A DNA stretch of 64,000 bases from Fervidicoccaceae archaeon. GTDB lineage: Archaea; Thermoproteota; Thermoprotei_A; Sulfolobales; Fervidicoccaceae. The notes below the pieces were generated by a model. The model was not told the DNA's origin. It made no database searches and saw only the letters and a list, made by a program, of their open reading frames with translations. Of this stretch, positions 4,764-14,479 are shown in pieces. The translations under genes and the position numbers were made by a program. The DNA lies in assembly GCA_038734945.1 (NCBI GenBank), contig JAVYOA010000009.1, positions 124,001-188,000 on the forward strand, read 5' to 3'. Every line of letters starts with the position of its first letter. The first letter of the stretch is position 1.

Positions 4764-5744
4764 CTACCTTTTCAATGGAAAGTGGCAAGCAACTAGGTGT
4801 CCCCTTTCTATTTCCTCTAGCATTGGCTCCTCCTTCATGCAAATGGTTCCAGCAAAGGGGCATCTGTTGCTGAACCTGCATCCTTTTGGTGGATTACGGG
4901 GATCAGGCATCTCTCCCTTCAACTCAATAGTCTTCTCAACCCTTCTTTTGCTTATGCTTGGTACGGCTTCCAGCAGTGCTTTGGTGTATGGATGTGCCGG
5001 AGATGATATTATCTGTTCAATGCTCCCCATCTCCACTATCTTTCCAAGGTACATTATGGCAACCTTTTCCGATATCAGTTTAGCAATGGATATATCATGA
5101 GTTATAAACAACATTGAGAGACCATTCTCTTTCTTGAAGCTTTCCAGAAGAGATACTATGGATGCCTTTATTGACATATCAAGCATGGACACAGCCTCAT
5201 CTGCTACCAAGAATTTTGGCCTAGTTATCATGGCCCTGGCTATAGCAACCCTCTGTCTCTGACCTCCAGAGAGGTTGTGAGGGAGCCTCTGTGCCATCTC
5301 TCTTCCAGGGAAGAGGCCGACCCTCTCAAGCATTTCAATGGCAATATTCCTCGCTTCCTCTGGGTCTGCTAGCCCAGCTATGATGAGAGGCTCTGCAACT
5401 GCATCCCCTATCCTCATCCTCGGGTTGAGGCTGGCATAGGGATCCTGAAAAACTATTTGCATGTCCTTTCTCAACTTTCTCATCTCTTCCTCCTTCAACT
5501 TCACTATTTCTCTTCCTATGAACTTAATGCTTCCAGCAGTCGGCTCAATGAGCCTCAGAACTAGCCTTCCGGTCGTTGTTTTTCCCGATCCGCTTTCTCC
5601 TATCAGCGAGAGCACCTCATTTTTTTCGATTTTGAAGCTGACTCCATCCACTGCTTTCACGAAGCCTTTCGCCTTTCCAATGAGTGAGGAGAACTCGAAG
5701 TACTTCTTGAGATCTCTGACCTCCAATATTGGCTCGCTATCCAC
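4764..5744 (-). CDS. Dipeptide/oligopeptide ABC transporter ATP-binding protein (DppF type)
   Basis: This is the second nucleotide-binding subunit of a peptide-type (PepT family) importer. Walker A is GESGSGKTT at residues 49-57, the signature is LSGGQRQR near 164, and Walker B is FLVADEAV. The C-terminal oligopeptide/dipeptide transporter extension is present, with the cysteines CRFSNRCPF...C that in relatives bind a 4Fe-4S cluster. It is the last transporter gene of the operon, 6 bases after the DppD-type gene. It acts on the cytoplasmic face together with the preceding ATPase and the two permeases. Confidence 0.94.
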   Translation of the reverse strand: MDSEPILEVRDLKKYFEFSSLIGKAKGFVKAVDGVSFKIEKNEVLSLIGESGSGKTTTGRLVLRLIEPTAGSIKFIGREIVKLKEEEMRKLRKDMQIVFQDPYASLNPRMRIGDAVAEPLIIAGLADPEEARNIAIEMLERVGLFPGREMAQRLPHNLSGGQRQRVAIARAMITRPKFLVADEAVSMLDMSIKASIVSLLESFKKENGLSMLFITHDISIAKLISEKVAIMYLGKIVEMGSIEQIISSPAHPYTKALLEAVPSISKRRVEKTIELKGEMPDPRNPPKGCRFSNRCPFAGTICMKEEPMLEEIERGHLVACHFPLKR

Positions 5745-11249: not shown

Positions 11250-12386
11250 CTAAGCGCTCTCATTTTTCAACAAAAAATAGATCTTCTTCTTCCTTTTTCC
11301 ATCCATCTTATACATTGAAGCAACCATCCCCAGCCTCTCCAAAGAAACCAGAGACTTGTACACCCCCCTAAGTGTATATTTTCCCAATCTTTCCCATACC
11401 TCATAGGCAGTGCCCTCTTTAATTTCCCTTAGAACTTCAACAATCTCATCTGTTAGTTTAGATTTTCTTGCTCCTAATGGCTTCGGTCTATTGCTAGCAG
11501 CAGTTATTATTGCTATAGATTTTCTCTCCTTCCTCTCCCTAAGAGCAGCAAGGGATGCAGCAGAAATCAGCTTAGTCTTTATTCCAGCTTTTGCTAGCTC
11601 AATCATCTCGCCAAGCGCTTTCTCTCTGCTAACATTAACTACTCTTACATCATCTATATGCTTCAATATCTCTGGCTGCTGTCCTCCCTCAAGCTGAACA
11701 GCGACTACTTCTATGTTCGAATCCACGCCAGCTTGTCTTAGATCTTCCCTTCCCTTCCAGATCGAGAGAGCTAACAATCCTGTTTCCGCTGGGACAAAGA
11801 CTTTTCCCTCACGAAATCCTCTCTCCAATAACTCAAATGTTATTGTCTTTAGACCCTCTATGGTAAGGGGGTTAGCATAGCTTAGATATCCCCCAGAAAC
11901 ATTGAAAGTGATGTTTGCTCCCAATTCTGTTAACAGTAGAACCTCATCCGGATCCACCTGCTCTGGATCTCCTAAAATTACCTCAACATCAGCAATTCCC
12001 ATCAAGTAGCTCACGAGAGAGTATGTGAAATCTCTTGAGTAGCTTATCCTCACAGCCTTTCCTGGCTCGCTTGAGAGGATATAGCTCGAAATCATCGCAG
12101 AGGACCTATCAGCATAGCTACCAGTGGGATTTCTAGTTTCAAGCTTTACTCTGACATCACCTGCTTTTCTTATCGGAGTTATTCCTTCGCCAAGGCTTAT
12201 TTTGCGCACAAAATTAGGAAGCATCGAAGAATATCTCCATATGTTAGGAACGTTCTGTGCGACTCTCCATTTCAATTCCCTTATCCTCAGAATGGGAACT
12301 CCATCGCAGTTCTCACAGCTGAGATAGATCCCTTCTCGAGTTATTCCACAAGACAGGCACTCAGTCAGAATCGAACCCTGATCCAC
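11250..12386 (-). CDS. Threonine synthase-like pseudoenzyme with C-terminal winged helix; candidate PLP-responsive regulator
   Basis: This 378-residue protein has a threonine synthase-like layout: an N-terminal zinc ribbon (C10, C13, C24, C27), then a fold-type II PLP-enzyme body. The motif that normally reads NPTGSFKDR, whose lysine binds PLP, reads NPTGSYADR here (residues 87-94), so the lysine is alanine at position 92. The SSGN loop and the glycine-rich phosphate loop are also degraded (RISYSRDFTYSL at 113-124; PAETGLLAL at 199-207). Residues about 308-378 look like a winged helix-turn-helix (YEVWERLGKYTLRGVYKSL, then a basic wing). It follows pdxT by 7 bases in the pdxS-pdxT operon. I infer a regulator that senses PLP or a related ligand without a Schiff base; a plain divergent enzyme is less likely. 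Confidence 0.8.
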   Translation of the reverse strand: MDQGSILTECLSCGITREGIYLSCENCDGVPILRIRELKWRVAQNVPNIWRYSSMLPNFVRKISLGEGITPIRKAGDVRVKLETRNPTGSYADRSSAMISSYILSSEPGKAVRISYSRDFTYSLVSYLMGIADVEVILGDPEQVDPDEVLLLTELGANITFNVSGGYLSYANPLTIEGLKTITFELLERGFREGKVFVPAETGLLALSIWKGREDLRQAGVDSNIEVVAVQLEGGQQPEILKHIDDVRVVNVSREKALGEMIELAKAGIKTKLISAASLAALRERKERKSIAIITAASNRPKPLGARKSKLTDEIVEVLREIKEGTAYEVWERLGKYTLRGVYKSLVSLERLGMVASMYKMDGKRKKKIYFLLKNESA

Positions 12387-12393
12387 TACTAGT

Positions 12394-12987
12394 TCATCTC
12401 TTCCCCAAAGTTAAAATATACCTGTGAAGGCTGTAGTCTCCCGTTATTTCTGGATGAAAGGTCACAGCAATGACATTTTTCTGAATTGCGGCAACACCCG
12501 TTCTTCCATACGGGGGGAAGTCCAAATAAGATATTATCCTAGCTGAGCCCCAAGCTTGATCTATAGCTGGGGCCCTTATGAAAGCTGCCCTCACTTTCCC
12601 AACCCCTTCCACTTCTACAGATGTTTCAAACGACTCTCTCTGTCTACCGTAAAAATTGCGCACGACCGAAATGTCCATAACGCCGAGCAAAGGCTGCTTA
12701 ACTTCTCCCACTCTTCTGTCTGTGACCCTCTTGGCTAGCAAAATTGCTCCAGCACAGGTTCCCAGCACAGGCATTCCCTCTAATGCTAGTTCTCTAACTC
12801 TCTCCTCCAATCCTGCTCTTGACAGCAATTTACCAATAGAAGTAGACTCACCCCCGGGAATTATCAAGGCGTCAATTCCCTCCAAGTCCATAGGTTTCTT
12901 CACATAAACAGGTTCACCTCCAATTTCTCTGACAATTTCTGCATGTTCAAGGAAGTCTCCTTGGACAGCTATAATTCCAATCTTCAA
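12394..12987 (-). CDS. pdxT: Pyridoxal 5'-phosphate synthase glutaminase subunit
   Basis: PdxT (Pdx2) releases ammonia from glutamine and feeds it to PdxS for PLP synthesis. The class I amidotransferase triad is complete: the nucleophile cysteine in GTCAGAILLAKR, and His and Glu in TFHPEITGD near the C terminus. The family motif GGESTSIGKLL is at about residue 46. The 197-residue length is normal. The start lies 4 bases after the pdxS stop, so the two subunits are co-expressed and should form the 12+12 complex known in the family. Confidence 0.96.
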   Translation of the reverse strand: MKIGIIAVQGDFLEHAEIVREIGGEPVYVKKPMDLEGIDALIIPGGESTSIGKLLSRAGLEERVRELALEGMPVLGTCAGAILLAKRVTDRRVGEVKQPLLGVMDISVVRNFYGRQRESFETSVEVEGVGKVRAAFIRAPAIDQAWGSARIISYLDFPPYGRTGVAAIQKNVIAVTFHPEITGDYSLHRYILTLGKR

Positions 12988-12991
12988 TTTA

Positions 12992-14008
12992 TTACACCCC
13001 CCTAACCTGCATGAGCTCTTCAGGTCTCAGCTGCTTCAAGTCTATACCTTCCAAAGCTCCTCTCTCTGAGACCATTGATTGTGCTTCTGCTACTGCTTCA
13101 GGATCATCCCAATGAGTAGTTGCTATAACTATCGCTCTCGCTCTGTTTTCAGGATCCGCGCTCTTGAATATTCCAGAACCAACGAATATTCCATCTGCCC
13201 CCAGCCACATCATTAGGGCAGCATCTGCAGGAGTGGCTATTCCACCTGCAGCAAAATTAACTACTGGGAGCCTACCAAGCTTAGCAGTGAGAAGAGCGAG
13301 CTCATAGTTTACCTGGTTTTGCCTTGAATATGACAGAATCGCCTCAAAATCTCCTGCCTGGGCATATCCTCTAAGGATGGAGATATCTCTGTTAACCAGC
13401 TTTATGTGCTTCACGGCCTCCGCAACATTTCCTGTTCCCGGCTCACCTTTCGTTCTTATCATTGCTGCTCCTTCTTCAATTCTCCTGAGGGCTTCAGGAA
13501 GATTCCTAGCCCCATTCACAAACGGCGTCCTAAACTTCCATTTATCAATGTGGGCAGACTCATCTGCTGGTGTTAGAACTTCGCTCTCGTCAATTAGATC
13601 GACACCGAGCTCCTCCAATATTCTTGCTTCCCATTCATGAGCAATTCTGCACTTGGCTGAAACGGGAATCGTTATGCTGTCCATTACCCTCTTTATAATG
13701 GAAGCATCAGCGGTCCTCGCAACTCCTCCTGCCTTTCTGACATCGTAGGGAAGCTTATCGAGGACCATCACTCCAACTGCTCCTGCATCCTCAGCAATTT
13801 CAGCTTGTCTCTCATTTGTAACATCCATTATCACCCCACCCTTCAGCATGGACACAAATCCGTAGTTAACAAGCGGAGTGGAAATTCTTAATGGGAAGAG
13901 CTCCTTTCCCTCCTCTTTTATGAGATCTCTCTGTTCAAGAAGGGAATAGATGAGCTCCTTCAATCTATCCAAATAGACATACGAATCTATGAGTTTCAAT
14001 TCCCTCAC
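12992..14008 (-). CDS. pdxS: Pyridoxal 5'-phosphate synthase lyase subunit
   Basis: PdxS (Pdx1) makes PLP directly from ribose 5-phosphate, glyceraldehyde 3-phosphate and ammonia. The TIM-barrel landmarks are clear: [44 protein letters not shown], and [34 protein letters not shown]; the two catalytic lysines fall in MVLDK and [10 protein letters not shown]. The start is GTG at 14008, with a TATA box at 14034-14041, so the message is nearly leaderless. It is the first gene of the pdxS-pdxT-regulator operon. A perfect palindrome sits just upstream of the TATA box. Confidence 0.97.
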
Positions 14009-14060
14009 TGATTAAGAGGTAAATTGAAGAAAATAAATATACTTAATTGAACGTTCAATT
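13995..14060. promoter_or_regulatory. pdxS promoter with 16-bp palindrome and repeated TTCAATT half sites
   Basis: The perfect palindrome AATTGAACGTTCAATT lies at 14045-14060. On the minus strand it is followed directly by a TATA box (TATATTTA, 14034-14041) and then by the GTG start of pdxS at 14008. Two more half sites are present: AATTGAA at 14022-14028 and TTCAATT at 13995-14001. The palindrome covers the BRE side of the promoter, a common operator position in archaea, and also lies between the divergent gene starting at 14102 and pdxS. Binding by the winged-helix protein encoded in the operon is inferred. Confidence 0.65.
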
Positions 14061-14101: not shown

Positions 14102-14479
14102 ATGGGGTATACTAGTTTGGACGGCTCCACGGTTATACAGTACATGGCATACATTATGGCTGCCATGTCTGTAGTCACTATAGCTTATGCAGTGGTCAAC
14201 TACAAGCAGCAGACTAAGGCGCTTAAGCTGTATGCCGAATATATAAGAATGACTCTCGATCTCCCAGAGGTCAAGAAGTTCACGGAAACTAGAAAGCGAC
14301 CCAAAATAGATGTCGGTGAAGATAGAGAGGGTAAGAAGGTCCTGGTAAGGTATTATGTGAGGGAAATGGACAGAGATCATCCCAGCGTTACCATTTCAAT
14401 AGATAAAGCTACCAAGAGAATTCTCAAAACAGAGGTAAAGGGAGAAAGCGAAGGGAAGAAAGGTGAGCAGAGAAAGTAG
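14102..14479 (+). CDS. Conserved small protein with one N-terminal membrane segment, function unknown
   Basis: This 125-residue protein has a hydrophobic segment at about residues 12-32 (VIQYMAYIMAAMSVVTIAYAV in context) followed by a charged cytoplasmic part with the pattern VRYYVREMDRDHPSVTISID. I do not recognise a family. A TATA-like CTTTTATT near 14075 places the transcript start close to the ATG, so it may be leaderless. It overlaps the following GTPase gene by 17 bases, which suggests they form one operon with the ribosome-biogenesis genes. Confidence 0.72.
   Translation: MGYTSLDGSTVIQYMAYIMAAMSVVTIAYAVVNYKQQTKALKLYAEYIRMTLDLPEVKKFTETRKRPKIDVGEDREGKKVLVRYYVREMDRDHPSVTISIDKATKRILKTEVKGESEGKKGEQRK

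Follow-up and report, generated by a model that had tools for sequence, protein, structure and literature searches.

Regulators derived from PLP enzymes are known from Bacteria, where PdxR/MocR proteins fuse a GntR winged helix to a fold type I aminotransferase domain. These control pdxST and/or the PF07155 transporter gene pdxU, and MocR regulators were stated to be absent from Archaea (PMC5320631). PF07155 includes the vitamin B6 transporters PdxU and PdxU2/HmpT, and prokaryotic B6 transporters are mostly unknown (PMC9997740). Archaeal regulators that bind upstream of the BRE/TATA usually activate while overlapping ones repress (PMC4706686, PMC5937170).

The window, a whole stretch of 64,000 nucleotides, contains a pdxS-pdxT operon whose third gene, on the same strand and after a gap of 7 bp, encodes a dead threonine synthase-winged helix protein (DTS). 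The features of the locus were as follows.

11250..12386, minus strand: DTS, 378 aa, GTG start
11271..11459, minus strand: predicted C-terminal winged helix, residues 310-372 (AlphaFold; A327, Y328, W331, L339 and Y343 invariant)
11487..12386, minus strand: threonine-synthase-like fold type II body including the zinc ribbon, about residues 1-300 (AlphaFold, Foldseek, PF00291)
12111..12113, minus strand: codon 92 (Ala), position of the threonine synthase Schiff-base lysine (A, S, T, V or M in 40 homologues)
12306..12359, minus strand: N-terminal zinc-ribbon cysteines C10, C13, C24 and C27 (C10 and C27 invariant, C13 and C24 above 90%)
12394..12987, minus strand: pdxT, PLP synthase glutaminase subunit (TIGR03800, E 4e-54; Pfam and NCBIfam agree)
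12992..14008, minus strand: pdxS, PLP synthase lyase subunit (NF003215, E 1e-135; Pfam and NCBIfam agree)
14034..14041, minus strand: TATA-like element TATATTTA, at conserved spacing from the putative operator
14047..14058, no strand assigned: putative operator palindrome TTGAACGTTCAA (extended form in the window AATTGAACGTTCAATT), 38 bp upstream of the pdxS start and the only exact copy in the genome

The PALP domain PF00291 was matched in DTS by Pfam (E 1e-17), and the threonine synthase matches returned by NCBIfam were all sub-threshold. An AlphaFold model made with 40 homologues from related genomes as input (pLDDT 91, pTM 0.88) had threonine synthases as its best Foldseek matches in the PDB (6nmx, E 3.5e-14, probability 1.00), in agreement with the fold type II body of these enzymes. 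The C-terminus was predicted to form helices at 310-322, 327-334 and 339-351 and strands at 355-362 and 365-372, a winged helix with weak sequence similarity to those of Fur and PadR. The Schiff-base lysine motif of threonine synthase, NPTGSFKDR, was replaced by NPTGSYADR, and residue 92 was Ala in 24, Ser in eleven, Thr in two, Val in two and Met in one of the 40 aligned homologues and Lys in none. In place of the SSGN/STGN pyridine-binding loop the alignment had (E/S)(E/R)DF(T/A), and the region that covers the substrate was shorter by about 40 residues. Residues N86, P87, Y91, D93, R94, S96, E177, G178, K180, T181 and G203 were invariant (n=40) and Thr295, at the position of the pyridine-N1 contact, was T or S in 40/40. 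Since residue 92 was never lysine while many other residues were invariant, DTS is maintained and not decaying. An active enzyme and a lone decay of the window gene were each considered and rejected, as no homologue had the lysine, whereas winged helix and linkage were conserved. The same genome has a further homologue of threonine synthase in which the lysine is intact (L074), so DTS is not the ThrC of the cell.

The sequence-only reading had proposed a threonine synthase-like body with a zinc ribbon downstream of pdxS-pdxT, the altered lysine motif, the loss of the SSGN loop and a winged helix at residues 308-378. The model, Foldseek, the cysteine conservation and the alignment bear these points out, with the winged helix predicted at 310-372. 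It had also listed the phosphate loop as lost, which was overstated: the loop is partly kept, with Gly203 invariant and residue 202 T or S in 36 of the 40 homologues, while the loss of SSGN stands.

Homologues of DTS were found in 42 of the 147 genomes of the order, and a class-wide search of 229 genomes recovered no DTS proper outside it. DTS adjoined pdxT and/or pdxS in 26 of the 41 cases with readable flanks, mostly in the order pdxS-pdxT-DTS and in some as DTS-pdxS-pdxT. Twelve DTS-bearing genomes, several of which were judged 97-99% complete, had no pdxS detectable in a pdxS search, and a strict dependence of DTS on pdxST was rejected on this ground. The locus of two members of the window's own genus likewise retained DTS with pdxST absent. 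Because DTS occurs without pdxST, it must do more than regulate these genes. Two irregular loci were also seen. G079 carries a second, broken pdxT-DTS locus (L091:5519-7479) besides an intact orphan DTS, and in G044 (L090:6706-8441) DTS and pdxT are each split across two frames through decay or sequencing error.

A palindrome of consensus TATTGAACGTTCAATA was found from the upstream regions of pdxS, for which 0.13 exact copies per genome are expected by chance, and it was exact at window positions 14047-14058. The core TTGAACGTTCAA was located with 0-2 mismatches upstream of pdxS in 31/31 promoters of DTS-bearing genomes, in most cases at a distance of about 40-60 bp from the start codon; the automatic start calls for pdxS in L053 and L090 fall upstream of it. 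Where DTS was first in the operon, the palindrome lay between DTS and pdxS. None of the 17 pdxS promoters of genomes lacking DTS carried it at two mismatches or fewer, the best match having three. The column at +19 from the start of the palindrome was T in 23/23 aligned pdxS promoters and marks the beginning of the TATA-like element.

The exact core was present in 25 of the 147 genomes (20/42 with DTS, 5/105 without). The 21 exact sites in DTS-bearing genomes included thirteen before pdxS, three before the gene for an ECF substrate component (ECF-S), one before DTS itself and one before an ABC transporter, while those in G026 and G068 and the second one in G029 were not in a target-like position. 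Exact sites in four genomes without DTS (G006, G017, G113, G135) were at chance level with no B6 gene downstream and were set aside. An apparent exception, G111, with the operator and pdxS and no DTS, was also dismissed, as its pdxS breaks off at residue 142 and continues as an unrelated ATPase gene. In this contig (L190 around 5240-5340), likely a misassembly or contaminant, the initial half of a pdxS of the DTS type is fused, together with its operator, to an AAA ATPase gene. A scan of genome contigs with the single DTS protein gave one short, unrelated-looking match only. On the plus strand of the window (14102-14479) a divergent gene of 125 aa with a membrane-like start has the operator palindrome 43 bp before it and could be a second target in the genus.

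In most of the more complete DTS-bearing genomes without pdxS the palindrome was located before transporter genes. G009 and G040, which have DTS and no pdxS, carried their sole exact palindrome 37-43 bp before the ECF-S start, an exact copy also preceded ECF-S in G141, and near matches did so in G030 (one mismatch) and G041 (two mismatches). TAA stood at +19 in 5/5 ECF-S promoters, as at pdxS, and recurred in the G072 and G079 promoters described below. The ECF-S genes of five other DTS-bearing genomes (G024, G073, G076, G078, G094) were without the palindrome, and G008 had a degenerate one only. In G008 a palindrome with one mismatch was also seen 35 bp before a radical SAM gene (L257:1501-2522) just after the ECF transporter genes.

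DTS-bearing genomes with neither pdxS nor ECF-S had the palindrome before other transporters of the ABC, APC and MFS types, at the following loci.

L189:4157-7322; L281:3374-4765; L282:3489-4877, no strand given: orthologous ABC solute-binding protein (PF01547), palindrome upstream, in three genomes that we take to be Acidilobus-like
L245, L246, L247 (about 1550-2940), plus strand; L253, L254 (about 1556-2770), plus strand; L278:150-1367, minus strand: APC and MFS loci with the palindrome upstream, in genomes that are presumably Caldisphaera-like
L279:2409-5492, plus strand (G079); L280:3828-8135, minus strand (G072): shared ABC operon, palindrome upstream

The first of these palindromes was exact in G037 and degenerate in the same place in G046 and G062, and paralogues of the solute-binding protein were without it. 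The divergent neighbour of the solute-binding protein in G037 is a fused ABC permease. In the Caldisphaera-like genomes G054, G166 and G080, DTS was present and no match to pdxS or ECF-S was found; the palindrome lay 37-46 bp ahead of genes for an APC permease and an MFS transporter, each in three genomes. These APC and MFS proteins are candidate importers of B6 vitamers, a role to which neither type has so far been linked. The operon shared by G072 and G079, which belong to different families, encodes a binding protein and a permease, with an ATPase seen in G072. The binding protein is similar to ferric-binding proteins and to P5PA, which binds PLP; for that of G079 the matches comprised the PLP-binding protein 6wce (2.7e-8) alongside ferric-binding proteins. 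We predict B6 vitamers as the substrates of the transporters at the palindrome-bearing genes. With 12 DTS-bearing genomes lacking pdxS and the palindrome there mostly before transporters, DTS is not only a pdxST regulator.

Two sister groups of longer fusions (about 435-460 aa) share the domain pair of DTS: in an Arg clade the motif reads NPTGSFRDR, or VFDR/LYDR, and in an Ile/Met clade NPTGSFIDR. DTS and the Arg clade were aligned over both domains by hhalign (E 6.6e-63), and in the model of an Arg-clade member (pLDDT 83) the C-terminus likewise forms a predicted winged helix. Erosion has gone less far in the Arg clade than in DTS: the usual PLP contacts, namely SDGN, TGxGLK and the phosphate loop, are retained. 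The Arg-clade gene was at an ECF transporter locus in 13 of the 17 Arg-clade genomes of the order, ten Ile/Met-clade genes were directly upstream of such a locus, and the pattern of the sister clades continues outside the order. Before its ECF-S gene the Arg clade has a conserved inverted repeat of its own, located as follows.

L096, L097, L099, L104, L105, L108-L110, L153, L155, no strand given: ECF-S upstream regions with TTAAAG-N6-CTTTAA

In G076 (L147:4003-4260) an N-terminal remnant of an Arg-clade gene lies upstream of ECF-S and an intact DTS accompanies pdxST, an apparent loss of a second regulator. The Schiff-base lysine was present in no fusion examined, and the inspected synthases with an intact lysine were without a winged helix. 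The tree supports each clade and allows for more than one root and more than one number of lysine losses.

The outcome for the broader claims of the sequence-only reading was mixed. The linkage to pdxST was conserved in the 26 of 41 homologue genes mentioned above, and no close homologue retained the lysine, which with the winged helix missing would have counted against it. Its proposal of a pdxST regulator gains support from the conserved operator as regards a role at B6 genes, while pdxST as the only target gives way to what appears to be a wider regulon. The architecture extends over a broad superfamily of three lysine-less clades, part of which was already in NCBIfam as PRK05638 'threonine synthase'.

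Our main reading, to which we give a probability of about 0.8, is that DTS is a one-component regulator of vitamin B6 supply acting through the palindrome TTGAACGTTCAA. A duplicated threonine synthase would have lost its Schiff-base lysine and gained the C-terminal winged helix. DTS, probably as a dimer, would bind TTGAACGTTCAA abutting the BRE/TATA of its target promoters and control pdxST where present and a B6-vitamer transporter where pdxST is absent, thereby matching supply to need. The signal would most likely be PLP, or else a different B6 vitamer, occupying the old active site without a covalent bond, and B6 shortage would raise target expression. The fixed spacing between operator and TATA just upstream of the promoter would fit an activator switched off by PLP, by analogy with PdxR. 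As the palindrome borders on the BRE and reaches slightly into it, a repressor role is allowed as well as an activator, and the constant spacing leans to activation.

That the ligand is PLP is fairly probable from the ancestry and the targets of DTS. It is possible, if distinctly less likely, that DTS controls the B6 genes through the palindrome and senses another signal such as an amino acid, O-phosphohomoserine or another B6 vitamer. The pocket has lost the lysine and may no longer fit PLP, given that the SSGN loop and some 40 residues of the active-site cover are gone. The body derives from an enzyme that binds O-phosphohomoserine, and some of the targets are amino-acid-permease-like. Every inferred target fits B6 supply, however, and the usual PLP contacts persist in the Arg clade.

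The ECF-S genes bear on which vitamin is served. ECF-S was assigned to PF07155 and its sole PDB sequence match was 4hzu_S, HmpT, a protein reported to take pyridoxamine as its substrate (PMC4860826). In the 104 genomes with a completeness of 90% or more, pdxS occurred alone in 43, ECF-S alone in 33, both in 17 and neither in 11, and the two genes were anti-correlated (Fisher P 3e-6; 0.0066 without family f11), although the genomes are phylogenetically non-independent and shared ancestry weakens these P values. The control tests against ECF-S without f11 gave P 0.21 for thiC and 0.11 for DMRL synthase. A NUDIX hydrolase gene recurs beside or near the ECF-S gene (L124-L129, L131, L144-L146, L156, L163). 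It is improbable that the linked regulon serves another vitamin, thiamine/HMP or riboflavin, as the names of PF07155 (after riboflavin) and HmpT (after HMP) and the weak anti-correlation of ECF-S with thiC and DMRL synthase when f11 is included might suggest, since 31 promoters carry the same palindrome before pdxS itself, pdxS shows the strongest anti-correlation of the genes compared and the closest solved relative is the pyridoxamine-linked HmpT.

Slightly less probable again is that the palindrome belongs to another, unlinked regulator and that DTS, simply co-transcribed in most operons, is just a neighbour. This is hard to reconcile with the division of the pdxS promoters (31/31 with DTS, 0/17 without), with the move of the palindrome alongside DTS to new targets when pdxST is absent, and with the different palindrome of the sister Arg clade beside its own linked ECF-S. 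Co-occurrence and re-targeting thus argue strongly for DTS as the protein that binds the palindrome. A role as an accessory to PLP synthase outside regulation, for instance in carrying PLP or as a PdxST scaffold, would suit the conserved operon and a PLP-enzyme scaffold able to accept PLP, but is very unlikely given that DTS persists in genomes where no pdxS was found, that the winged helix is conserved and that a sister clade is linked to a transporter.

The best reading of the regulator of B6 supply proposed here is as part of a family of B6-responsive regulators in Thermoproteota, functionally like bacterial PdxR and unrelated to it in descent. A PALP body without the Schiff-base lysine, followed by a C-terminal winged helix, and linkage to pdxST or a PF07155 ECF-S gene would mark such a superfamily, and both were found for DTS. 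We lean towards a wider view, in which PLP-sensing regulators across Thermoproteota form a superfamily descended from fold type II PLP enzymes and comprise at least three lysine-less clades with two different operators. This superfamily would be the counterpart of PdxR in Archaea, and its control would extend from de novo PLP synthesis to several candidate B6 transporters, among them APC, MFS and ABC types for which no link to B6 has so far been made. If true, a PLP enzyme would have become a gene switch a second time, by convergence and on an unrelated fold. It offers a testable archaeal B6 regulator with an exact putative operator and predicted targets, four of which are transporter families. 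To our knowledge the DTS regulon is the first B6 regulon proposed for Archaea. The sequence-only reading knew of no earlier description, and none of a threonine synthase-derived regulator or a threonine synthase-HTH fusion was found in the open-access literature.

Compared with ThrC (PDB 1uim, 6cgq, 2c2g), DTS shares the fold, the zinc ribbon, which is also in other archaeal ThrC, and the NPTGS.xDR and EGxKT motifs, and differs in its lack of the Schiff-base lysine and SSGN, its shorter body and the added winged helix. The archaeal TFB-RF1 and TrmBL1 systems likewise have a palindrome beside the BRE/TATA, where binding upstream of the BRE activates (PMC4706686, PMC5937170), and their sensor parts are without homology to that of DTS. 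PRK05638 (NF004170), of 442 aa, has the same two-domain architecture as DTS over its full length, carries Arg (Tyr/Phe in a few) for Lys in every member inspected and adjoins a PF07155 ECF-S gene. DTS scored 115 bits against its curated cut-off of 421, and this Arg clade differs from DTS in the retained SDGN and full body and in its palindrome. As all inspected members (L094-L110, L261-L273) were without the catalytic lysine and had a winged helix, the equivalog name 'threonine synthase' is probably wrong, and many archaeal proteins so annotated probably have no such activity.

PdxR/MocR and DTS are alike in fusing a PLP-enzyme-derived part to a winged helix. Neither the N-terminal GntR winged helix nor the fold type I aminotransferase domain was found in DTS, whose fold type II body, C-terminal winged helix, missing lysine and archaeal host set it apart, the domains being unrelated. 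The control of pdxST/pdxU through repeat operators has a putative parallel in the operator and targets detected for DTS by sequence. Regulators derived from PLP enzymes and PdxR regulons with pdxST and pdxU were already known (PMC5320631), and what is new is the sensor fold of DTS.
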